Assembly: GCA_021846395.1 (NCBI GenBank)
Contig: JAJZXB010000015.1
Coordinates: forward strand, 1-34,052
DNA length: 34,052 nt
From: Thermoplasmata archaeon
GTDB taxonomy: Archaea > Thermoplasmatota > Thermoplasmata > Thermoplasmatales > Thermoplasmataceae
Direction: 5' to 3'
Below, piece after piece: positions 5,537 through 33,086 of the stretch. Made by a program: the position numbers and the translations under genes. The stretch's first letter is position 1. Every line of letters starts with the position of its first letter. The notes beneath the pieces were generated by a model that was not told the origin of the DNA, made no database searches, and worked only from the letters and a program-made list of their open reading frames with translations.

Positions 5537-7495
5537 ATGGAAAGCAAAACGGTGAATGAACCATTAAAATTTTCAATAGAATATATGGATTTTAAAAATG
5601 ACCCTGCTGAAGATTTTTATAAATTTTCAAATGGTAAATGGCTTGAAAAAGCCAAAATACCTGGTGATAAAACAAGGCACGAAGCTTTTTCAATTCTTGC
5701 AGAAAAAAATCTGTATAAATTGAAATCAATTTTAGGTGAATTAAAAAATAAGGAAAATCCTGATAAAATAGAAAAAATGGTAAGTGATTTCTATAAATCA
5801 GGTATGGATACAGAATTAATAGAAAAATTGAAGTTCGAACCACTGAAAGATATGGTGAGTATTTTAGATGATATGAAGAGCCATGCGGATTTGCCATTAG
5901 TATTATCAAAACTTTCTATGAATGGAATAGACACTTTATTTGGCTTTGGTTCAGAAGCAGACGAAAAGAACAGTGAGATATATGCATTTTATTTGATGCA
6001 ATCTGGGTTATCATTGCCAGATCGTGATTATTATTTAAATGACCAGTTTAAAGATATTTTAAAGGAATATGAAAAGCACATAAAAATAATGCTTGATTTG
6101 TATGGATATGAAAACCCTGAAAAATTTGAGAAAAAAATTGTAAATATAGAGAAAAAAATAGCAGAATTTTCAAGGTCTAGAGTCGATTTAAGAGACCCAG
6201 AAAAGAATTACAATAAAATGCTTTTAAACGAATTATCTGAAAATTATAAAAACTTTGATTTCTCTTTATTTTTAAACATTATAAATTTTAAGCATTCAGA
6301 TTATGTTATCATAGGACAGCCCGAATTTTTTAAAAATGTAATTGATTATTTCGAAACATTGAATATAGATGATATAAAAAATTATTTATTCTGGAAAATA
6401 CTGAATTCAACTGCATCTCTTTTGCATAAGGAGGTCAGAGATGAGGATTTCAGATTTTATAAAAAAGTTCTTCTTGGCCAAGAAAAGCAGGAGGAAAGGT
6501 GGAAAACTGTAGTTAAGGTTATTGATGCGTCCATAGGGGAGGCTCTGGGAGAATTATATGTTAAAAGATATTTTCCACCTGGTGCAAAGGAAAGAATGAT
6601 GGCAATGATCTCAGATATAGAAGATGTTTTTAAAGAAAGGCTAAAAAATGTTGAATGGATGACTCCAAAAACAAAGGAAATGGCATTGAAAAAATTCTCA
6701 AAGTTCAATGAGAAAATCGGATATCCAGACAAATTCATGGATTATTCATCGATAAAAATAGAAAAAAATGATTATTTTGGCAATGTTCTCCGAGCTGATT
6801 TGTTTGAAATGAATCGCCAGATGAACAGAATAGGAAACAATGTGGATAAAACTGAATGGGAAATGACACCTCCGACCGTAAATGCATACTTCAACCCTTT
6901 AAAGAATGAAATTGTATTCCCAGCAGGAATATTGCAGCCACCATTCTTTGACAACGAAATGGATGATGCCGTGAATTATGGTGGCATAGGAGGAGTAATA
7001 TCACATGAAATAACACATGGTTATGATGATGAGGGAAGGCATTTTGATGAAAACGGCAATCTTGTGGATTGGTGGTCAGAAGAAGATGCAAGAAAGTTTG
7101 ATGAATATGCAGATAAGGTTGTTAAATTATATGATTCTCTGGAGATCCTTCCAGGAATACATGTCAATGGAAAATTAACGCTAGGAGAGGACATAGCGGA
7201 TTTGGGAGGAGTGTATATTGCATATAATGCCCTTGAAAATCATCTGAAGAAACATCCTGAATTGAACAAAAAAATAGATAACTTAACCCCTGAGCAGAGA
7301 TTTTTCATATCATGGTCGCAGGTGTGGAGAGGAAAAATAAGGGAAAATGAAATAAAAAGATTAATAACAATCGATCCACACGCCCCCTCAAAATTTAGGG
7401 GAGAAGTACCGGTATGGAATCATGAAGAATTTGAGAAAACATTCAAGGAATATATAAAAAATGATAAAAAGAAGGAGAAAATAAAAATTTGGTAA
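5537..7495 (+). CDS. M13 family zinc metallopeptidase (neprilysin/PepO-like)
   Basis: Zinc endopeptidase of 652 residues, the usual length for bacterial PepO-type members. The zinc motif HEITH lies at residues 490-494 (SHEITHGYDDEGR), and the third ligand motif GEDIADLGG at 550-558 (Glu551). The substrate-backbone motif NAYFNP and the FPAGILQPPFF stretch precede the zinc site. The N-terminal half carries the M13 N-domain (DPAEDFYKFSNGKW, residues 17-30), and the family C-terminus with FRGEVPVWNHEEF is complete. There is no signal peptide or N-terminal membrane anchor, so it should be cytosolic, where it would cut peptides rather than folded proteins. It is monocistronic, with AT-rich sequence and no Shine-Dalgarno site before ATG 5537. 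It could work on peptides in a peptide-scavenging acidophile, but there is no direct link to the ABC transporter further on. Confidence 0.96.
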   Translation: MESKTVNEPLKFSIEYMDFKNDPAEDFYKFSNGKWLEKAKIPGDKTRHEAFSILAEKNLYKLKSILGELKNKENPDKIEKMVSDFYKSGMDTELIEKLKFEPLKDMVSILDDMKSHADLPLVLSKLSMNGIDTLFGFGSEADEKNSEIYAFYLMQSGLSLPDRDYYLNDQFKDILKEYEKHIKIMLDLYGYENPEKFEKKIVNIEKKIAEFSRSRVDLRDPEKNYNKMLLNELSENYKNFDFSLFLNIINFKHSDYVIIGQPEFFKNVIDYFETLNIDDIKNYLFWKILNSTASLLHKEVRDEDFRFYKKVLLGQEKQEERWKTVVKVIDASIGEALGELYVKRYFPPGAKERMMAMISDIEDVFKERLKNVEWMTPKTKEMALKKFSKFNEKIGYPDKFMDYSSIKIEKNDYFGNVLRADLFEMNRQMNRIGNNVDKTEWEMTPPTVNAYFNPLKNEIVFPAGILQPPFFDNEMDDAVNYGGIGGVISHEITHGYDDEGRHFDENGNLVDWWSEEDARKFDEYADKVVKLYDSLEILPGIHVNGKLTLGEDIADLGGVYIAYNALENHLKKHPELNKKIDNLTPEQRFFISWSQVWRGKIRENEIKRLITIDPHAPSKFRGEVPVWNHEEFEKTFKEYIKNDKKKEKIKIW

Positions 7496-9715: not shown

Positions 9716-11101
9716 ATGAACGGTAATGGTACTGGTTCAAGTTATGAAAAAAAATCCATAATTGCAAGAATGCAACGAATAGACGAATGGCCACTTCCAA
9801 AGTCCTTTTTAGCAATAATAGCACTTGGGTATTTTTTTACATTCTACGATGTTACTGATATAGGCTTTGCAATGCCTGCCATTGCACCCCAATTTAACTT
9901 AGTGGGATCGGAGATTTTATTTCTGGCCTTATCAATAGGGCTTATAGGATATGTATTTGGTTCGTTTATCATAGGGGGTTTATCGGACAGGTATGGACGA
10001 TATCCAATGCTAATTATTACCATGGCATTGATGGCTCTTGGGTCATTTGGAGATGCAGCATCAGTGAACCTTGATATGCTCGTCATATTTAGATTCATCA
10101 CCGGTCTTGGATTGGGTGCAGATTTGAACCTTATTCCTGCGTATATAGGTGAATTTGCACCAGCTGAAAGGAGAGGGCACCTTGCACAGATAACATTCTT
10201 CCTGGGCATACTGGGGCAGGCAGTGACGCCATTCGTTGCCCTGGCACTTGTACCGCCCTTTTACTATGGGTGGAGAGTGCTGTTTTTCATAGGAGGGTTA
10301 ATCGCTGTAATAGCAGTTATATTGAGAACTGAACTTCCAAGGTCCCCAAGATGGCTCGTTTCACACGGAAGAGTTAAGGAAGCCGACGGAGTTGTTTCCA
10401 AATTTGAGAAATATCTAAAAGATAAAGGGCTCTCCTTACGCAAAATAAAGGATGAAGATATAAATAAAATAAATTTAGAGGATGAAACTAGCCGGATTCC
10501 CTTCAAATACCTATGGCAAAAACCATACAGATTGAGAATGCTTATATTTGGCCTGTGGTGGGGACTCTGGTACATTGGGAATTATGCCTTCCTTGGAGAT
10601 GCGGCAACCATTCTCTCCTCATCTGGTGTTTCCGTGGCAAGTTCTATCCTTTACATAGCCATAGGGGCGATAGGGTATCCAGTTGGAGCAATATCTTCCT
10701 GGTTTATATCAGATAAAATAGAAAGAAAAATTATTATATTTGGAGGCTCCATAATGTGGCTTATTGGTATGCTTATATTTGGGAGCAAATATAATGATAT
10801 AACCTTGATAATAGGAAGTTTCATAGCTTCCTATGCCCTTGCCTTCACTCTTGGAATTGCCTATCTGTATACCTCTGAAAGCTATCCAACAAGGGCAAGA
10901 ACATCTGGATTTGCAATGGGGGATGGACTTGGCCATATAGGAGGAGCCATAGGGGCACTTCTACTGCCTGTCTGGGTGACAGAAATTGGATTTTTCGGAG
11001 GATTTGCCTTTATTGGGTTTACCACACTAATAGCCGGAATAATACTTGTTGTTTGGGGTTCCATGGCCACAGGAAAGCAGCTGGAATCAATTTCGGCATA
11101 G
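9716..11101 (+). CDS. Major facilitator superfamily transporter (metabolite:H+ symporter/sugar porter type)
   Basis: A 461-residue membrane protein with twelve hydrophobic segments and clear MFS signatures. GGLSDRYGRYP (loop 2-3 motif) lies near residues 89-99, the RFITGLGLGADLNLIP helix follows, LPRSPRWLVSHGR precedes the long central loop, and ESYPTRARTSGFAMG lies in the second half. These match the metabolite:H+ symporter/sugar porter branch, whose members take up sugars, aromatic acids or dicarboxylates. The substrate cannot be read from the sequence. The neighbours are enzymes of acyl-CoA metabolism (dead acyl-CoA dehydrogenase; hydratase, lyase and CoA-transferase operon), so an organic acid is an attractive guess. 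At the growth pH of these acidophiles proton symport is expected to be strongly driven. The start at 9716 follows a TATA-like box. Confidence 0.9.
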   Translation: MNGNGTGSSYEKKSIIARMQRIDEWPLPKSFLAIIALGYFFTFYDVTDIGFAMPAIAPQFNLVGSEILFLALSIGLIGYVFGSFIIGGLSDRYGRYPMLIITMALMALGSFGDAASVNLDMLVIFRFITGLGLGADLNLIPAYIGEFAPAERRGHLAQITFFLGILGQAVTPFVALALVPPFYYGWRVLFFIGGLIAVIAVILRTELPRSPRWLVSHGRVKEADGVVSKFEKYLKDKGLSLRKIKDEDINKINLEDETSRIPFKYLWQKPYRLRMLIFGLWWGLWYIGNYAFLGDAATILSSSGVSVASSILYIAIGAIGYPVGAISSWFISDKIERKIIIFGGSIMWLIGMLIFGSKYNDITLIIGSFIASYALAFTLGIAYLYTSESYPTRARTSGFAMGDGLGHIGGAIGALLLPVWVTEIGFFGGFAFIGFTTLIAGIILVVWGSMATGKQLESISA

Positions 11102-11144: not shown

Positions 11145-12153
11145 ATGGCCATAGAATATCCAGGAAATGTTAATGAAAATGATGAACTTTTAATTAAAAT
11201 AGTAGGGGAAATAACACGGAATTTTGGGAAAAATTACTGGAAAAAGTTTGAAGAAAGGCATTTATATCCAAATGATTTTGTCAGGGGAGTTCACAAAACA
11301 GGATTTATTTAAAATACCAATACCTGAAAAATATGGTGGAGGAGGTCTTGGGATAAAAGAGGGATCACTAATTCTTGAGGAGATCAATGTATCCGGTGGC
11401 AATTCCCAACCTTTCCACGGACAGTATTACATGACATGGTTTCTGTCAAAATTTGCAAGTGAGAAACAAAAAAATGCTTTGTTCCCTGATCTTGGAAGTG
11501 GAAAAATTAGAATGCAGAGTATGGGGCTTACCGAACCTGATGCTGGATCAAACACTCCAATTGTCAATACATTTGCCACAAAATCAAATGGCAAATATAT
11601 AGAACGGTTAGAAAATATTCACATCCAGGATTGAGGAACCATGCTGGGTTTTGATTGTGACCAGAACAAAAAAATATGAGAAGGTTTCAAAGAAAACAGA
11701 CGGAATTAGCCTTTTTTTGTTGGGTCCTGAGGAAAAGAAACAGATTGAGTTTACAAGGATTAAAACAATGTTCAATAGCCAGACATATCAGGTATTTTTA
11801 AGGGATGTCCAAGTTCCAGCAGAAAATATTATCGGAAGGGAAAATGAGGGGTTTTCATATTTAATGCACGTTCTCAATCCCGAGAGGATTTTGATAGCAT
11901 CTGAAAGCATAGGAGATATGAGATGGTTTATTGAAAAGTCATCAGAATATGCGTCAAGCAGAATAGTATTCAGCAGGCCAATAGGCCAGAATCAGGGAAT
12001 TCAGTTCCTATTGCTGACATATATGCAAAAATGCTCTCAGTGGCATCATTGAGATGGGATGCAACCACCATGTACGATAATGGAGGAGATATAAAGAAAA
12101 TTGTACTTTCATATATGTGCCACAATGTTTTGAACATGCCAAAATCCTACTGA
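11145..12153 (+). pseudogene. Acyl-CoA dehydrogenase, frameshifted and truncated at the 3' end
   Basis: Three overlapping frames give consecutive parts of an acyl-CoA dehydrogenase. ATG 11145 opens MAIEYPGNVNENDELL to stop 11310-11312. The next frame carries KIPIPEKYGGGGLGIKEG, SGGNSQPFHGQYY and the signature LTEPDAGSNTP (about 11530-11570). After about 11600 the reading must shift, through an in-frame TAG (NG*KIFTSRIEEPCW), to LIVTRTKKYEKVSKKTDGIS and GRENEGFSYLMHVLNPER. A last shift near 12000 gives PIADIYAKMLSVASLRWDAT, ending at TGA 12151-12153. Intact enzymes are about 380-400 residues; about 50-60 C-terminal residues are gone and the end collides with the stop of the opposite CoA-transferase gene (7-base overlap). 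It once oxidised an acyl-CoA with an FAD cofactor. A TATA-like ATATTTATATA at 11113-11123 still precedes it. Confidence 0.9.
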
Positions 12154-13559
12154 TTTTCAAACCATTCAGCTGCAAGATGAATATCATACGGAATGTGTTT
12201 ATTTTTGCATCCGTTAAGGTATTTTATCAGGGAATCCCTGTAAGGAGGACTGGCACAGTTGTTTATGATTTCAATCGCCTTCTCCCGCGGATCCTTCCAT
12301 CTGAGATCTGCTATTCCATTTTCAGTAACTATAAAATCTACCATCTGCTTTGGTATATCAACATTTGAAAGCAAGGGCACTATCTTGGATGTTCTCGAAT
12401 CTCTGGAAAGCGAAGTCAGGGCAACTATAACATACTTTCCTGAAGAGGCAAAATCACCAGAGCCACCAACACCGTTGTAGATATTTCCATTTATATGGGA
12501 AACATTTACGGATCCATATATGTCGGCTTCAAGTGCCTGCTGGATAACTATTGCATTCAATCTTCCTATAATTTCCTGGTTGTTTGTTATGTAATTTGGT
12601 CTCAAAACCAGCGAGTTAATGTAATCAGCATATGAATTTAGAAATTTTGCTGTGTATTTTTCATCTCCAGGGAGTGTGTATAAAGCTGAAGCACTTATTT
12701 TGTCTATCTTGTCCCCTATCTTTTCGATCCATTTTGATGGGGCAATTTCGCACCATATCTTCAAATTATCATATGGTGATGCATCTATAAGGGATGTGGC
12801 AATTGATCCTGCACCCACCTGCAATGGCTCCACATTTTTAAATGCAATGAATTCTGTAAGAATTTTCCAGATATTGTTTGAAATTATGTCAATATTTTTT
12901 GGGGGTCTTCCATAGGAACTTCCGGATTCTTCTTTCCTATCCGTAAAAATTATGCCCTTTATTTTGTCTTTTTTAATTTTTAAGTACCGGCTTCCTGGCC
13001 TGTCATAAACATGTTTTATACCTGCCGTTTTTCTGCTTTTTAGTGGTATAATATCATGAAGACCATCCAGATCGGGCTTGTCTGTATTTATTTCTATCAA
13101 AATATTTTTTGCCGCATATTCAAGAGCAGGAACAGCATCAATGGAAAGTGACGGCACAATCCCATTTTCACCTATGGCTGTTGCCTCAAAAATTAAAAAG
13201 TCTATTTTATTTCTCATTTCATATCCCATGAGCCGTGAATACCTGGAAACAAAATAATCCATCATCATGGTTTTCCCGTTGTTTACAGATAATCTGCTTT
13301 TATTTCCGCTTAAATAATAGAACCTCCTTTTTATTTCCAGTTTGGACATTTCATCCTCAAATGTATCAGTTGTTCCACCACCAGTATATAGAGTGATATT
13401 TTTACCCTTTGCATTTATTGAAAGTTCTGAAGGGATCTCCTTGGGAATGGACTGTCCACCCATGCCACCAAAGGCTATTGAGTTTGCATTCGTAAGCATT
13501 CTTGCAGCTTCATCCACGCTGATGACTTTTTCCCTAAAGGATCCAGTTATTCTTTCCAT
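12147..13559 (-). CDS. Acetyl-CoA hydrolase/transferase family (family I) CoA-transferase
   Basis: A 470-residue enzyme of the Ach1/Cat1 family, which moves CoA between organic acids, usually from succinyl-CoA or acetyl-CoA. The expected glutamyl nucleophile is Glu271 in LKIWCEIAP, after LQVGAGSIATSLI (residues 246-258). The conserved C-terminal stretches GVGGSGDFASSGK (363-375) and VTENGIADLRWKDPREKA (411-428) are present. The gene is third in a minus-strand operon after the MaoC-like and CitE-like genes; 17 bases separate it from the CitE stop, with GGTG as a weak ribosome site. With those two partners the natural role is activation of a C5 dicarboxylate (itaconate or mesaconate) to its CoA ester, as in the bacterial rip/ict-ich-ccl systems, where the CoA-transferase is also of this family. 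Substrate is inferred. Acetate or succinate CoA transfer remains possible. Confidence 0.88.
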   Translation of the reverse strand: MERITGSFREKVISVDEAARMLTNANSIAFGGMGGQSIPKEIPSELSINAKGKNITLYTGGGTTDTFEDEMSKLEIKRRFYYLSGNKSRLSVNNGKTMMMDYFVSRYSRLMGYEMRNKIDFLIFEATAIGENGIVPSLSIDAVPALEYAAKNILIEINTDKPDLDGLHDIIPLKSRKTAGIKHVYDRPGSRYLKIKKDKIKGIIFTDRKEESGSSYGRPPKNIDIISNNIWKILTEFIAFKNVEPLQVGAGSIATSLIDASPYDNLKIWCEIAPSKWIEKIGDKIDKISASALYTLPGDEKYTAKFLNSYADYINSLVLRPNYITNNQEIIGRLNAIVIQQALEADIYGSVNVSHINGNIYNGVGGSGDFASSGKYVIVALTSLSRDSRTSKIVPLLSNVDIPKQMVDFIVTENGIADLRWKDPREKAIEIINNCASPPYRDSLIKYLNGCKNKHIPYDIHLAAEWFENQ

Positions 13560-13576
13560 TAATACACACCCATTGT

Positions 13577-14392
13577 TTACGGATTTTCACCACTATTCTT
13601 AATTATGCTTTCCGCCATTCTTATATGCACCGAGTCAACCAACTGCCCATCGACGTTTAGAGCACCTTTTCCCATTGAGGATGATTCCCTGTATGCCCTT
13701 ATTATTTTTTTGGCCCATTCAATCTCCTCTCTGGTCGGTGAAAAAATCTGGTTGGCAATTGCAACTTGCGATGGATGTATGACCTGCTTCCCCTCATACC
13801 CAAGAGACTTCGCTTCCCTGCACTCCTCGGCAAAGCCATCAGAATTGTTGAGGTCAAAGTAAACTTTGTCCATAGCTTTAACACCAAAGGATCTTGAGGA
13901 AATGGCAACTTTGGTTTTCAGATACAGGTTTGATGAATAACCCTGAATATTGCCGCCTGCCGAAAATGATAGATCGCCTGCCGCCCATGAAACCATTTCA
14001 ATGCCCTCCTGGGATATTACATCATCCAGCTTATTCATGCCCCTTGCTGTTTCAATCAGGGCTATTACTGGTATGCCAAGATGTCTGTAGATATGGCTCA
14101 GCCCCAATTCTGATTTTGGAACCACAAGATAATCCGGCTTTTTTTCTGCCCTGTCAATGGCTATAATATCATGGTAGAAATATCCCGTATCCATGGCGTT
14201 TATTCTTATGGCTATTTTTTTCCTTGCCGTACTATTTTGAATAAATTCTAGAATAAACTCACGTGCAGAATCTTTTTCACTGTCAGGAACTGAGTCTTCA
14301 AGATCAAATATAATCATGTCTTCATCCATGTCAGAACTTTTGTTCACCATTTTTTTATTGTTAGAAGGCACATATAGTTGGGATCTTATCAT
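13577..14392 (-). CDS. CitE/HpcH-family acyl-CoA lyase (citramalyl- or malyl-CoA lyase-like)
   Basis: A TIM-barrel C-C lyase of 271 residues from the ATG at 14392. Family marks are MIRSQLYVPSNN at the N-terminus, IIFDLEDSV (residues 27-35), RIN (Arg63), LIETARG with the metal ligand Glu114, WAAGDLS with the second acidic ligand Asp140, GKQVIHPSQ (201-209), and the tail VDGQLVDSVH. Enzymes of this kind split (S)-citramalyl-CoA to acetyl-CoA and pyruvate, or malyl-CoA to acetyl-CoA and glyoxylate. A start at 14404 (MVIIMIRS) is possible, but 14392 aligns with the family and has GGTGAT five bases upstream, placed over the stop of the preceding hydratase gene; this points to translational coupling. 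It is not a classical citrate lyase subunit, because no CitF or acyl carrier CitD is present. Confidence 0.9.
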   Translation of the reverse strand: MIRSQLYVPSNNKKMVNKSSDMDEDMIIFDLEDSVPDSEKDSAREFILEFIQNSTARKKIAIRINAMDTGYFYHDIIAIDRAEKKPDYLVVPKSELGLSHIYRHLGIPVIALIETARGMNKLDDVISQEGIEMVSWAAGDLSFSAGGNIQGYSSNLYLKTKVAISSRSFGVKAMDKVYFDLNNSDGFAEECREAKSLGYEGKQVIHPSQVAIANQIFSPTREEIEWAKKIIRAYRESSSMGKGALNVDGQLVDSVHIRMAESIIKNSGENP

Positions 14393-14397
14393 TATTA

Positions 14398-14865
14398 TCA
14401 CCATTTTTTATTTTTAACAGGAATCATAAAGGTTCTTACCATTTCCATAACCTCTTCAGATTTCTGGTTTAATCCTGTTGTCTTAATTTTCACAACCCCA
14501 AATCCTTCATGTGTTTTTGATTCTCTCTTATCTAAAACCTCAACCTTGGCATATAATGTATCCCCAGAAAATACAGGCGCCTTGAATTTTACATTTTCTA
14601 TTCCAAGCATGAAGCCATTTTTGCTTGTATATTCAACAGATAAGCCCACCACAATTGCCATGGTAAACATGCCATTCACAACAAGCCTTCCATTGAATGG
14701 ATTCCCGGAATAATTTTTCTGAGTGTAATCACTATTGAAATGAATTTGATTGTTATTGTTTGTCAGAAGTGTGAACCATATATTATCATTGTCCGTTATG
14801 GTTCTTCCAATTTCGCTTAAATATACGCCTCCAATTTTTATATCTTCATAGTAAACATCATTCAT
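14398..14865 (-). CDS. MaoC-like hydratase (mesaconyl-/itaconyl-CoA hydratase candidate)
   Basis: Hot-dog-fold hydratase of 155 residues. The MaoC signature appears as WFTLLTNNNNQIHFNSDY (about residues 30-47). The usual catalytic Asp of GDxNPIH is Asn here, while the His is kept. From memory, mesaconyl-CoA hydratase-like proteins also have WFTLLT followed by Asn in place of Asp, which would favour a C4/C5-dicarboxylyl-CoA substrate over plain enoyl-CoA; this needs an alignment. FMLGIENVKFKAPVFSGDTL is the typical second half. It is the first gene of the operon hydratase-lyase-CoA-transferase, with a TATA box about 22-29 bases before its ATG. Its TGA stop lies 5 bases before the ATG of the lyase gene. 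The likely reaction is hydration of itaconyl-CoA or mesaconyl-CoA to citramalyl-CoA, or of a similar substrate. Confidence 0.85.
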   Translation of the reverse strand: MNDVYYEDIKIGGVYLSEIGRTITDNDNIWFTLLTNNNNQIHFNSDYTQKNYSGNPFNGRLVVNGMFTMAIVVGLSVEYTSKNGFMLGIENVKFKAPVFSGDTLYAKVEVLDKRESKTHEGFGVVKIKTTGLNQKSEEVMEMVRTFMIPVKNKKW

Positions 14866-27716: not shown

Positions 27717-28211
27717 TTAAAATTGCATTTTTTCTTTTCTGAAAAATTCCACGTTTTTAATATACCCTATATTGTATTCATTGCATATATACGGTATTTT
27801 TATTTTATTTCCATCCAGTTTTTCCTCAGTTATTACCACAATGTTTTTCCTGCCATTTATGGTCATCGAAAAATCAGATTGTTCAATGGCAAGTGCAACT
27901 ATCCACGGGTCCGCATCACAATTCCCATAATCCTTCACAAATGACGGATATTTCATTAATATATTTTTCACTATTTCTGTCTGTTTTACAGTAATTTTTT
28001 TAAACATATTCTCATTTTTCTTGCACCATGAATAAAGTGCATCATCATGCTTTGATATTTCATCTTTAACCTCAGCAGGAGCCATTATATAGTGCTGTTT
28101 GGATAGATTCCCCAGTGTTTTCCAGACAGTGGGAAAAATATCTATGGGATTGTGTTTGCTCAGATCAATCAATGATGAGGCATCTATTATATAATAATTG
28201 TTTGAAATCAT
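27717..28211 (-). CDS. DUF4411 PIN-like nuclease (toxin candidate)
   Basis: A 164-residue protein matching DUF4411, a PIN-domain-like family. It begins YYIIDASSLIDLSKHNPIDI with the first acidic residue Asp10, has PAEVKDEISKHDD in the middle, and GNCDADPWIVALAI with the second acidic cluster. PIN-type nucleases cut RNA and are common toxins. Its ATG overlaps the stop of the preceding XRE/ImmA gene by 4 bases (28208-28211), so the two are translationally coupled. DUF4411 genes next to XRE/ImmA genes are a recurrent bacterial and archaeal pair regarded as a toxin-antitoxin-like or stress module. The toxin role is inferred. Confidence 0.82.
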   Translation of the reverse strand: MISNNYYIIDASSLIDLSKHNPIDIFPTVWKTLGNLSKQHYIMAPAEVKDEISKHDDALYSWCKKNENMFKKITVKQTEIVKNILMKYPSFVKDYGNCDADPWIVALAIEQSDFSMTINGRKNIVVITEEKLDGNKIKIPYICNEYNIGYIKNVEFFRKEKMQF

Positions 28212-29350
28212 TTCATCACTCTTTCTATGACCTTATCGTAATTTTTTGATTTGATGGACAATAAATCAAGAACATCATTGTATGTTATGAAATCCTCCTG
28301 ATAATTGCTTTCAACAATTGATATAAATTTATATCCCATTTGAGATACGCATGTTCTCTCCTGTGGAATTACGGAATATTTATCTTTATCCTTTTTGTTT
28401 AATTTCTTTTCATTTTTGTGTGAATATTTCAGCGAATCAAATTCATCTTTTGTTATATAATTCAGATTTAGCATTTTAACCAGAAGGAACAATCTGCTTA
28501 TACTGTATTTATTTGACAGTCTAACTAATGTTTTATCCATTGTAATATTATCAACGTTTTTGAACAAGTCATCAGCCAGAGATTCAGGGAGTAAAAATGA
28601 TGATGCGAATCTGTTACACCATCTTTCTATATCATTTTGATTGGAATCATTTTCTTCAGGCAAATCAATTCCACCTTCCCCTAAGATAATATGACCGAAT
28701 TCGTGCATTATTGTGAATATTCTTGCCTCTATTTTATCTGCTGAATTTATGACCATAATATTTGGCTTTTCGTCGTTAAGAGTAAATCCTCTTGCATCCC
28801 CTATGGGAATTGAAAACTGAAATGTAAAAACATCAAATGTTTCTATACTGTGCCTTAAATATTTATATACATCATAAGAATTTTTAAAATTAATCTGTTT
28901 ATTTTCATCAAATTCAAACAATTGACGGTATTCATTTGCTATATTCTCTGGATTATCATTGATATTTGCCCTTCTTATTTTCTCCCTGTTTTTATAATTT
29001 ATATTTTTTTGAAGATCTTTTAAAATATTCTGTATATTTCTTGCTTTATTTATTATTGATATTGTTTTTTTATCAAATATGTTATTCTTTTCCGGAATTG
29101 ATCTGAAATCCCTTGGCATATTATATTCTTTTTTGGGCTTTGATAAGAAGAATAATGCAACCGGTTTTTTATAAATACTTGATAATTTTTTCAACTGACT
29201 TAATGTTAATTTTTCAGTTCCATTTTCAACATCATTTATAAAATCTATGGAAGTCTTCAATTTATTTGCAATTTCCTCAACACTATAACCAGAGGTTTTT
29301 CTTATCCATATAAGGACATTTTTGTTAACATCAATGGTGTCGGCTTTCAT
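28208..29350 (-). CDS. XRE helix-turn-helix / ImmA-IrrE zinc metallopeptidase (antitoxin candidate)
   Basis: A 380-residue two-domain protein. Residues 10-70 form an XRE HTH (KTSGYSVEEIANKLKTSIDF, NGTEKLTLSQLKKLS). From about 165 an ImmA/IrrE peptidase domain follows, with the zinc motif HEFGH (216-220) and the third-ligand helix WCNRFASSFLLPES (244-257). Proteins of this COG2856 type bind DNA and degrade repressors or partner proteins. It is the first gene of the pair with the DUF4411 gene. The pair reads on the minus strand, and its promoter must lie in the 29351-29691 gap, facing away from the HTH_10 gene. Autoregulation by the HTH domain is likely but not shown by the sequence. Confidence 0.87.
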   Translation of the reverse strand: MKADTIDVNKNVLIWIRKTSGYSVEEIANKLKTSIDFINDVENGTEKLTLSQLKKLSSIYKKPVALFFLSKPKKEYNMPRDFRSIPEKNNIFDKKTISIINKARNIQNILKDLQKNINYKNREKIRRANINDNPENIANEYRQLFEFDENKQINFKNSYDVYKYLRHSIETFDVFTFQFSIPIGDARGFTLNDEKPNIMVINSADKIEARIFTIMHEFGHIILGEGGIDLPEENDSNQNDIERWCNRFASSFLLPESLADDLFKNVDNITMDKTLVRLSNKYSISRLFLLVKMLNLNYITKDEFDSLKYSHKNEKKLNKKDKDKYSVIPQERTCVSQMGYKFISIVESNYQEDFITYNDVLDLLSIKSKNYDKVIERVMK

Positions 29351-29674: not shown

Positions 29675-29697
29675 CACATGTGGGTTAATAATTGATT

Positions 29698-30402
29698 ATG
29701 AATGAAGACATTTTCACCTTGCTTTCTTTTAATGCCAAACACCATTGCTGGAGCAGAGAAACAAGAGAATATGATGCTTCCCACCTTAAAATTCACCTTC
29801 TAACTTCCTATCCAGTAATAGGAAAAACAGATCTGTATACAGTTGCATCAATATACGGGATGAAATCAGATGTGAAAACCTTTCTTACCAAATTAAAAAA
29901 TTCAGTTAACGTAAAAAAAATTATTTCAACATCACAATATTATGATAATTTTAATAAGAATACTGTGGATACATTGCTGGAATTCATAGTAAGTTACAGT
30001 GATACCATAACCACAACTGTATCCAACTTCAATCCCCTGTCCTTCAATGTTAATATATTTAATGGAATTGAGCAGTGGAATGTCTATTTTGTAAACCCGA
30101 AAAGATATCAAATTGGCCATCTTTTAAAAAGCCTGGATTCAAATTTTGATATAAACAATAGCAGTGTTAAGAAAGTATCAAATGTGGATTTATACAGGGC
30201 ACCAGACAAATTTTATTTAAATATGGGCGAGGTTAAATTTATAGAATTTTTAATGGAAAGCGGATTTTTTAAATCCCCCAGATCGGCAAATCTTGAACAG
30301 ATTAGCAAAACACTTGGCATTTCTCCATCTACACTGAGTAGAAAGGTGAGGGATGTTGAGTCGAGAATTTTTAACAGACTTCTGGAATATGAAAATATGT
30401 AG
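29698..30402 (+). CDS. Bacterio-opsin activator-type HTH_10 transcriptional regulator
   Basis: About 234 residues. The C-terminus (about 180-234) is an HTH_10 DNA-binding domain, seen as KFIEFLMESGFFKSPRS, LEQISKTLGISPSTLSRKV and VESRIFNRLLEY. The N-terminal part (HHCWSRETREYDASHLKIHL) resembles the sensor half of small archaeal bat-like regulators and has HxC-type residues near position 17-18, but the ligand is unknown. ATG 29698 is preferred over TTG 29692 because of the leaderless promoter. It lies 50 bases before an APC permease gene on the same strand, so it may control the permease and the PLP enzyme after it. Confidence 0.82.
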   Translation: MNEDIFTLLSFNAKHHCWSRETREYDASHLKIHLLTSYPVIGKTDLYTVASIYGMKSDVKTFLTKLKNSVNVKKIISTSQYYDNFNKNTVDTLLEFIVSYSDTITTTVSNFNPLSFNVNIFNGIEQWNVYFVNPKRYQIGHLLKSLDSNFDINNSSVKKVSNVDLYRAPDKFYLNMGEVKFIEFLMESGFFKSPRSANLEQISKTLGISPSTLSRKVRDVESRIFNRLLEYENM

Positions 30403-30452: not shown

Positions 30453-31853
30453 ATGGAAATCAGTGAAAAAGAAATGGTTGAATTAAAAAGAGGTACAATA
30501 CCGTTAAGTAAACTGGCAGTTCAGGGATTGGCTGTTATTGGCCCATCCATTACAGCGGCCATATTGATCACGGGAATAGCCGGAGTTGCACTATCAGCTA
30601 CACCTTTGGTTTTTATAATAGCAACAGTGGCAATTTTAATAAATGCCAACACTGCAATACAGTACTCCAAAAAAATAGCAAGTTCTGGTGGCTTTTTTAC
30701 ATATGCATCCCATGGCATAGGTCCAAGAACAGGAATAATGGCCGGTTTTTATCAGTTATTTTACAATATTAATAACGTTGCCTTTCTTGCACTATGGAAT
30801 GGATATTTTTTGGTCAGCATTTATTCATTTTTTACAGGAAATGGAGTCAGTTCATATACTATGTTACTAGTCGGCTTTATAACAGTGGCATTCTATTTTC
30901 TTATACAGTATTTTGGAATAAAGAAGGCAATTAACTTTAACTTTGTTACAGGGTTAATAGAAGCTGCATTTCTGGTTATTATATCCATAATTATAATTTT
31001 ACTGTCCCCCTCTTCAAATACAGCATACGTATTTACTCCTGGTTCTGCTGGAATAGGTGGAGTTGGATTGGGCATGATTCTAGCATTACTGTCATTCGGT
31101 GGATATACCACAGTGGTATCATTATCAGAAGAGGCAAAAGAGCCTAAGAAAAATGTTGGAAAGGCAATAATATTTACAATAATCCTTGCTGGATTTATAT
31201 TTGTACTTACATCATATGCTCTTACAATAGGCTGGGGATACAATAATATGGCTAATTTTGCCCTTTTGCCACTTCCCGGATTCACAGTTGTTAAGGCAAA
31301 GATTGGAATTATACCAACAATAATACTAGGCATTATTGTATTGAGCTCAAATCTTAATGCAGTAAATGGTCAGATGGTGAACCTTTCAAGAGTTGCATAT
31401 AGGATGTCAAGGGACGGCATCCTGCCAAAAAGTTTGGGAAAGGCACACCCAAGATATCAGACACCGTATATTTCCCTAATTGCCCTTACATTAATCAGCA
31501 CGGTTATTATGGTAATTGTATTCCTGCTGGTAACTCCAGCAATCGAGGCGGTTTTTCTGCTGGCTACAATGGCAACCGTTGGTACAATAATGGTTCACAG
31601 CATTACAAATATATCTCTCATACCCTATTCACTGAAAAATAAAGATTTTAAGGTTTTTATAACAGGTTTGCTCCCAGTACTGGGAACAATACTGATTTTA
31701 TATGCTTTATACGCTTCTATATGGCCACCTATATATCCATATTTTATTGCACCGGTGTTGCTAATTGTCTGGACAGTTATATGCATATTATATATAGTGC
31801 TGGTTATTAATAAGAAAACAAACATTGAAGAAATTGGGAAATTTACGCTTTAG
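30453..31853 (+). CDS. APC-superfamily amino acid permease
   Basis: A 466-residue membrane protein with twelve hydrophobic segments. The APC hallmark ITAAILITGIAGVAL in helix 1 and GGFFTYASHGIGPRTG in helix 2-3 are present, as are SFGGYTTVVSLSEEAKEPKK (helix 6) and RVAYRMSRDGILPKSLGKAHP (helix 8 loop). It takes up an amino acid or amine by proton or sodium symport. The substrate is not decided by the sequence. The SHMT-like enzyme overlaps or abuts its 3' end (9 bases from stop to the ATG), so the imported compound is probably the substrate of that enzyme. Confidence 0.92.
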   Translation: MEISEKEMVELKRGTIPLSKLAVQGLAVIGPSITAAILITGIAGVALSATPLVFIIATVAILINANTAIQYSKKIASSGGFFTYASHGIGPRTGIMAGFYQLFYNINNVAFLALWNGYFLVSIYSFFTGNGVSSYTMLLVGFITVAFYFLIQYFGIKKAINFNFVTGLIEAAFLVIISIIIILLSPSSNTAYVFTPGSAGIGGVGLGMILALLSFGGYTTVVSLSEEAKEPKKNVGKAIIFTIILAGFIFVLTSYALTIGWGYNNMANFALLPLPGFTVVKAKIGIIPTIILGIIVLSSNLNAVNGQMVNLSRVAYRMSRDGILPKSLGKAHPRYQTPYISLIALTLISTVIMVIVFLLVTPAIEAVFLLATMATVGTIMVHSITNISLIPYSLKNKDFKVFITGLLPVLGTILILYALYASIWPPIYPYFIAPVLLIVWTVICILYIVLVINKKTNIEEIGKFTL

Positions 31854-31862
31854 GTGATACAG

Positions 31863-33086
31863 ATGGAACTTGAAAACAATACAGAACACATACTAAACGA
31901 GTTGAATAACGCAGTTTTAAACCATAATAAACTCAGATCAGATAGCCTAAATCTCATAGCCTCGGAATCAATTTTATGGGACTCCACCAGCTTAGCAGAT
32001 TACGTAGATCTTACAAGGAGGGCTATTCTTGGAATACCGAATGAGCGTTACAGCGAGGGCGGAAAGTATATTGATATAATAGAAAACATTACAGAAAAAC
32101 TGCTAAAGGAGTCATTTAAAGCTTCCTTTGCTGAATGGAGGCCTATTTCTGGCTCAATAGCCGACGGAGTATTAATTCACGCATTGACCTCAGTTTCAGA
32201 CCCAGTTTTGGCAACCCCAACCCCACTGGGGCATCCTACCTGGCATGAAAATGGATATGCGGGCTTTAGAGGGTTAAAATTGTATGATACACCATATGAC
32301 TGGAATAATCTGGAACCAGATTACAAGAAACTTGAAGAATTTACCTCTGATAATAATATGAAATTAATAATAGAAGGATCATCTCTAATACTTTTCCCCC
32401 CGGACTTTAAAAAATTAAAAGAAGCATCCAACGGCATTCCAATATGGTATGACGGAGCTCACATTCTTGGCCTGATTATTGGGAATAAGTTTCCAAACCC
32501 GTTAAATTATGGAATTAATGCACTGAGTGGATCCACTCAAAAAACCATGGCAGGACCACTTGGTGGAGTTATATTGACAAATAATGAAAATATGTATAAA
32601 ACTATTGTTAAGGCAACATCCAATGATATGGCAACACCAGATTACAGCAGATATGTTATGCTAAGCAAGGTTCTATTAAACTGGAAAAGTTCGGGAAATT
32701 CACTTGCTAAAAATATTACAGAAAATGCCAAAACTCTAGCGGAAGAATTGGTGAACTGCGGAATGAGAGTTATTCTTGAGGAAAGGGGATATACATCCAC
32801 GCATCAGATTGGACTGGTGGCTCCAGGTGATATGTCATCCGAAATGGCTGCCAAACGCCTATCAATGAAAAATATTATTACAACGCCCTTTCCATTGCCA
32901 AAAGAGGCTAAATACAGCAATGTATTGCGTCTGGGAGTTACTGAATTGACACAAATGGGTGCTACAGAAGAGGATATGAAAATTGTTGCTAGAATAATTA
33001 ACGGTGCATTTACAAATGATAAAGACTCCATTGATAGCATTAAAAAATTACTGGGCACTTTGAAAGCGGAAAGGGTGAAATTATGA
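31863..33086 (+). CDS. Divergent serine hydroxymethyltransferase-like PLP enzyme
   Basis: A 407-residue fold-type I PLP enzyme of the SHMT family. SHMT-type marks are LNLIASES (29-36), NERYSEGGKYIDIIE (60-74), the cofactor motif WYDGAH (Asp197, His200) and the Schiff-base lysine in SGSTQKTMAGPLGGVI (Lys227). Canonical SHMT has THKTLRGPRGG at this point, and the folate-binding region and tyrosines differ, so this is not the housekeeping glycine-serine enzyme. A threonine/allo-threonine aldolase or other amino acid cleavage role is more likely. The start at 31863 has GGTGAT just upstream, within the GTG codon at 31854 that follows the permease stop. The coupling with the permease suggests uptake and breakdown of one amino acid. 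Confidence 0.85.
   Translation: MELENNTEHILNELNNAVLNHNKLRSDSLNLIASESILWDSTSLADYVDLTRRAILGIPNERYSEGGKYIDIIENITEKLLKESFKASFAEWRPISGSIADGVLIHALTSVSDPVLATPTPLGHPTWHENGYAGFRGLKLYDTPYDWNNLEPDYKKLEEFTSDNNMKLIIEGSSLILFPPDFKKLKEASNGIPIWYDGAHILGLIIGNKFPNPLNYGINALSGSTQKTMAGPLGGVILTNNENMYKTIVKATSNDMATPDYSRYVMLSKVLLNWKSSGNSLAKNITENAKTLAEELVNCGMRVILEERGYTSTHQIGLVAPGDMSSEMAAKRLSMKNIITTPFPLPKEAKYSNVLRLGVTELTQMGATEEDMKIVARIINGAFTNDKDSIDSIKKLLGTLKAERVKL

Follow-up and report, generated by a model that had tools for sequence, protein, structure and literature searches.

A hydratase–lyase–CoA-transferase operon in an Acidiplasma genome as the candidate core of branched C5-dicarboxylate breakdown

The window analysed here, a 34,052-nucleotide stretch (contig JAJZXB010000015.1, positions 1–34,052) of a genome of the archaeal genus Acidiplasma, carries three full-length open reading frames (ORFs) that form a single minus-strand operon. 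The first encodes a MaoC-type hydratase of 155 amino acids (14865–14398; Pfam MaoC_dehydratas, 9e-17; MC_hydratase, 1e-13), followed by a CitE-type C–C lyase of 275 amino acids counted from its first ATG (14404–13577; Pfam HpcH_HpaI, 1e-33) and a family I coenzyme A (CoA) transferase of 470 amino acids (13559–12147; Pfam AcetylCoA_hyd_C, 2e-33; AcetylCoA_hydro, 1e-7). The lyase and transferase genes are 17 bases apart, and an alternative lyase start at the second ATG, at 14392, yields a protein of 271 amino acids and a gap of 5 bases after the hydratase gene. A preliminary description of this DNA had reported a tightly spaced hydratase–lyase–transferase operon and proposed that it breaks down itaconate or mesaconate; its coordinates and both gaps were confirmed on the ORFs.

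Close copies of all three genes occur in 4 of the 117 genomes of the order: the window genome, Acidiplasma aeolicum VT (G041, NZ_LKBG01000100.1) and the metagenome-assembled genome (MAG) TL1-4.bin46 (G042) from the same genus, and MAG TL1-4.bin55 (G065) from a different genus of the same family. Gene order and orientation are identical in the three other genomes, with protein identities of 73–86%, 54–84% and 55–89%, and the ratio of nonsynonymous to synonymous substitution rates (dN/dS) against the nearest relative is 0.07–0.15, indicating purifying selection. The shared arrangement and this selection together argue that the trio is not a product of chance. No further close transferase was found in 390 genomes sampled across the phylum of the window genome. 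Among 84,980 species genomes searched for the hydratase, relatives turned up in Metallosphaera yellowstonensis, in MAGs of Thaumarchaeota and one of Thermoprotei, in Euryarchaeota EA_19, and in many proteobacteria, Acidobacteria and Chloroflexi.

In G041, G042 and G065, the operon converges with an intact acyl-CoA dehydrogenase gene (392 amino acids), after which comes a major facilitator superfamily (MFS) transporter. A divergent family III CoA-transferase (CaiB) follows the transporter in G042 and G065, and a CaiB of 59% identity lies on a separate contig in G041. The transporter stands beside the dehydrogenase in all four genomes, and the window copy (9716–11101, plus strand; 461 amino acids; Pfam Sugar_tr/MFS_1; also recognized by synteny) is intact and 93% identical to that of G042. 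The window dehydrogenase is a pseudogene (11145–12154, plus strand; traced by tblastn and by DNA alignment with locus L080) bearing at least five lesions: a +1 frameshift near 11285, a 2-base deletion near 11602, an in-frame TAG near 11609, a −1 frameshift near 12019 and a 168-base deletion after about 12102. The CaiB of the island is missing from the window genome, where the best copy is a paralogue of 36% identity. The window operon is the surviving half of a once larger island; the three-gene operon of the preliminary description stands as an operon and not as the whole unit, the dehydrogenase being broken and CaiB lost in this genome. Because dN/dS fails to separate the pseudogene (0.11) from the intact trio, the decay is recent, and by the same measure it is not proven that selection kept acting on the trio once the dehydrogenase was lost.

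The best NCBIfam model for the hydratase is RipB_Ich (NF038241), with 132.8 bits, under the equivalog cut-off of 340 bits, versus 48.9 bits for the haloarchaeal 2-methylfumaryl-CoA hydratase model and 31.9 bits for FabZ. No hydratase above the Rip-model cut-off, wanted as a yardstick, turned up among the 390 genomes of the phylum or 274 sampled gammaproteobacterial genomes. In the tree, the window hydratase falls within a clade of CitE-linked Ich/RipB-like hydratases (support 82/93), apart from the N-terminal domains of Mch, from PaaZ and from others, a placement that is good and not decisive: its fork carries no star, and the tree contains long reference branches. His42 is kept, Asn37 replaces the Asp of classical hydratase-2 throughout the clade, and the archaeal members have a short insertion in common. 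A grouping with fatty-acyl hydratases, which would have told against the proposed pathway, is not what the tree gives; on the tree and on the clade-wide Asn for Asp, a fatty-acyl hydratase identity was rejected.

The lyase retains every catalytic residue (D34-L-E36-D37, R67, E118, D144 and D257, aligned with structures), among them the conserved Arg, the C-terminal lid Asp and the metal ligands named for CitE-like lyases (PMC3832036), and the gene set suits activation, hydration and C–C cleavage of a C5 dicarboxylate, as had been proposed. It scores 156.6 bits with the NCBIfam model RipC_Ccl and 148.6 bits with citE, both under cut-off, and 49.5 bits with the haloarchaeal malyl-CoA lyase model. 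Its tree position is in an archaeal clade (99/99), outside the bacterial RipC/Ccl clades; joining this clade with human CLYBL is rejected at p = 0.034 in the approximately unbiased (AU) test, for a group picked after the tree was viewed. The nearest characterized neighbours are the malyl-CoA/β-methylmalyl-CoA lyases (Mcl) 5ugr and 4l9y, with no firm support (78/43), and 5ugr is also the best single match in the PDB. These neighbours, and a small Gly143 before the metal Asp where Mcl has Ala, speak for a glyoxylate-forming variant of the kind known from the methylaspartate and ethylmalonyl-CoA pathways. The hydratase would make either malyl-CoA or, starting with mesaconyl-C1-CoA, β-methylmalyl-CoA, and cleavage by the lyase would yield glyoxylate together with propionyl-CoA or acetyl-CoA. 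We consider this variant unlikely. The hydratase is nearer to RipB/Ich than to the haloarchaeal hydratase. In malyl-CoA lyases and HaloMS, a Pro and a Trp crowd the methyl group of pyruvate (PMC3832036); the window lyase has Val and Gln at these positions, as does human CLYBL (columns matched from sequence). Further, each trio-bearing genome has one CitE-like gene and no malate synthase exceeds the cut-off in any of the four (G000, G041, G042 and G065), which leaves no obvious glyoxylate outlet and favours pyruvate over glyoxylate as the product. The Val/Gln pair and the lack of malate synthase thus favour citramalyl-CoA over malyl-CoA or β-methylmalyl-CoA as the substrate. Citrate lyase is ruled out as an identity for this gene: the window and islands hold no CitD/CitF partner, and the true citrate-lyase β-subunits of the order form a separate branch.

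By sequence comparison, the transferase belongs to the succinyl-CoA:acetate subfamily of AarC, ScpC and YgfH, with RipA as a distant cousin. It scores 308.9 bits with the NCBIfam model YgfH_subfam (cut-off 658.7), and its PDB matches are 2g39 (3e-62), AarC (1e-49) and RipA (3qli, 4e-10); the match to Yersinia RipA is confined to the C-terminal ~130 residues (316–446). The preliminary description had read the transferase as bringing the operon closer to the bacterial rip layout, which neither these matches nor the family III transferase in the relatives' islands supports. The conserved Glu of the AarC YSEV motif is matched in the alignment by Glu271, and the GGSGDF oxyanion loop is kept. The substrate loops are altered relative to the AarC type, with GFTGAGYPKEVP changed to GMGGQSIPKEIP, YSEVIQDG changed to WCEIAPSKW and LPGDE inserted, and the changes are partly common to the EA_19 locus (L135). 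The enzyme may activate a C5 acid or recycle acetyl-CoA/acetate. The subfamily takes its name from acetate, succinate and propionate, and the CitE and CitF families are distant kin of two trio genes; on these grounds the trio might serve citrate-lyase-like or acetate/succinate-type CoA metabolism of another short-chain acid, not a C5 compound. This is very unlikely: beyond the absent CitD/CitF partner and the separate citrate-lyase branch, citrate cleavage needs no hydratase.

In other organisms, hydratase relatives repeatedly lie near dehydrogenase, CaiB and CitE genes, both in proteobacteria and in acid-soil archaeal MAGs (L127, L128, L130, L131, L133 and L135). The first five of these archaeal loci place the hydratase beside a similar dehydrogenase (50–54%) and a CitE (35–44%), often also with CaiB and an ATP-binding cassette transporter of the branched-chain-amino-acid type; EA_19, another archaeon, combines MaoC, dehydrogenase and CitE with the same unusual class I transferase. 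The hydratase relative of Advenella (L168) occurs with MmgE/PrpD, dehydrogenase, CaiB and CitE, and that of Stutzerimonas (L190) with MmgE/PrpD, dehydrogenase, CaiB and a TRAP (tripartite ATP-independent periplasmic) transporter. The Advenella lyase is closest to PDB 8khl, which, judging by its length and name, is probably Pseudomonas aeruginosa PA0883. A set of the MmgE/PrpD–dehydrogenase–CaiB type degrades itaconate and methylsuccinate in Cupriavidus necator and P. aeruginosa (PMC12290011).

Three further kinds of neighbourhood were seen. A related archaeal cluster, MFS–MaoC–dehydrogenase–CaiB without CitE (L083, G032:C1, 2785–7054), adjoins UxaA-like, malate/lactate-dehydrogenase-like and enolase-superfamily genes and probably acts on a different acid. 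M. yellowstonensis has two hydratase copies (L126 and L129), 63% identical to that of the window, with no CitE, dehydrogenase or CaiB nearby; an acyl-CoA ligase-type gene (AMP-forming) follows the L126 copy, and transposase-like ORFs are found in the vicinity. In other genomes of the window's phylum, MaoC lies near CitE in 12 of 12 loci (L110–L121), mostly adjacent and wider apart in L113 and L114; they represent a second type (about 35% and 29% identity) whose clade is separate from that of the Acidiplasma pair.

Taken together, we put at roughly 0.6 the probability that the operon is the core of a pathway breaking down a branched C5 dicarboxylate (mesaconate, itaconate or methylsuccinate) to acetyl-CoA and pyruvate. 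What the sequences establish is the genes with their order and conservation, the catalytic residues, the tree placements and the decay of the dehydrogenase; the substrates, the CoA donor, the direction and the role in transport are all predicted. The MFS carrier, a candidate importer whose best NCBIfam match is the aromatic acid/H+ symport subfamily at a score under cut-off, would bring in the acid, and the transferase (12147–13559) would move CoA from acetyl-CoA or succinyl-CoA to mesaconate or itaconate. The hydratase would then form citramalyl-CoA by hydrating mesaconyl-C4-CoA or itaconyl-CoA, and the lyase would split this product into acetyl-CoA and pyruvate. In the intact relatives, CaiB would put CoA on methylsuccinate and the dehydrogenase would convert methylsuccinyl-CoA into mesaconyl-CoA; with this branch decayed in the window genome, the three-step mesaconate/itaconate route would remain.

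Several observations weigh against this pathway. The island is partly decayed, and the pathway may be disappearing from the window genome. The window lyase is outside both characterized clades of bacterial citramalyl-CoA lyases, and uniting it with those of the RipC and PA0883-like types in a single clade was rejected (p-AU = 0.005); on this point, too, the rip-like layout of the preliminary description is not supported. Characterized kin of the transferase act on acetate, succinate or propionate, and function in the lyase family is not readable from bioinformatics alone (PMC6689899). The island dehydrogenase shares only about 26% identity with its counterparts in the Advenella and Stutzerimonas clusters, and its catalytic Glu aligns at the isovaleryl-CoA-dehydrogenase position. 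That position would fit a 3-hydroxy-3-methylglutaryl-CoA (HMG-CoA) route as in Mycobacterium (Rv2498c), with the hydratase acting on 3-methylglutaconyl-CoA, the lyase on HMG-CoA, the transferase on acetoacetate and the dehydrogenase on isovaleryl- or 3-methylglutaryl-CoA; CitE-type Rv2498c cleaves both citramalyl-CoA and (R)-HMG-CoA (PMC6689899). We regard this route as quite improbable, given that the island ORFs include no carboxylase gene, that CaiB and the transporter suggest a free acid that is taken up and activated, and that the lyase of the Mycobacterium tuberculosis type does not group with that of the window.

If the C5 substrates are right, members of the Acidiplasma group, which are extreme acidophiles, could consume or detoxify itaconate, mesaconate or methylsuccinate, and relatives from acid soils probably could too; at the growth pH of extreme acidophiles these acids are protonated and membrane-permeant. 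A pathway already established for bacteria and fungi would gain an archaeal variant, with the same chemistry reassembled from different lyase and transferase lineages. The suggestion that this function is new for the lineage fits the open-licence literature, in which we found no report on itaconate for Acidiplasma or Thermoplasmatales. The four genomes also offer a small, testable comparison, with the methylsuccinate branch surviving intact in some of them and lost from one.

Elsewhere in the window, a peptidase of family M13 (neprilysin-type, 652 amino acids; 5537–7495, plus strand) is encoded in this acidophilic archaeon. Adjacent DUF4411 and HTH-M78 (IrrE-like) genes with a 4-base overlap (27717–29350, minus strand) resemble a toxin–antitoxin pair. 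An HTH_10 regulator (29692–30402) lies upstream of an amino-acid permease and a directly following divergent member of the serine hydroxymethyltransferase family (98.6 bits to that enzyme; 30453–33086, plus strand), which are possibly a small amino-acid catabolic operon.

Finally, the trio can be set against known systems. Like Yersinia ripABC, it has a core of family I transferase, MaoC and CitE, and its hydratase and lyase score best with the NCBIfam models RipB and RipC; unlike ripABC, its scores are far under the equivalog cut-offs, its lyase is outside the RipC/Ccl clade and RipA matches only the C terminus of its transferase. Membership in ripABC, as the best NCBIfam names would have it, was rejected on these scores and on the disagreement of the trees, and two of the three enzymes, the lyase and the transferase, are on this evidence not Rip orthologues. 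Like the P. aeruginosa/C. necator cluster of Ict, Ich, Ccl, methylsuccinyl-CoA dehydrogenase and methylsuccinate isomerase (PMC12290011), with which it shares reaction classes, the islands of the relatives unite a CoA-transferase, an acyl-CoA dehydrogenase, a MaoC hydratase and a CitE lyase, and the window hydratase is about 42–45% identical to those of the MmgE/PrpD-bearing Advenella and Stutzerimonas clusters. Unlike that cluster, the islands have a lyase of the archaeal clade, another dehydrogenase subfamily and an extra class I AarC-like transferase, and the ORFs of the four islands, judged by eye and not all scanned, included none recognized as an MmgE/PrpD methylsuccinate isomerase. The transferase resembles AarC, ScpC and YgfH in full-length homology, catalytic Glu and GGSGDF loop, and differs from them in scoring under the subfamily cut-offs and in its altered loops. 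With the haloarchaeal methylaspartate-cycle enzymes Mct, Mch and Mcl (PMC5592240), the trio would share an archaeal host and mesaconate-type substrates; a family III transferase, the family of Mct, is present in the relatives' islands and absent at the window locus. Unlike Mch, whose model spans 358 positions, the window hydratase is a single domain of 155 amino acids (49 bits with that model), and unlike Mcl, the window lyase scores 49.5 bits with the haloarchaeal malyl-CoA lyase model as opposed to 157 with RipC. By the tests made, the trio belongs neither to ripABC nor to the P. aeruginosa cluster, and it probably works in the manner of itaconate/mesaconate degradation. Two convergent variants have been recognized so far (PMC12290011); more tentatively, acidophilic archaea might hold a third, independently assembled C5-dicarboxylate pathway, with an archaeal lyase clade in place of Ccl/RipC and an acetate-type CoA-transferase in place of Ict/RipA.

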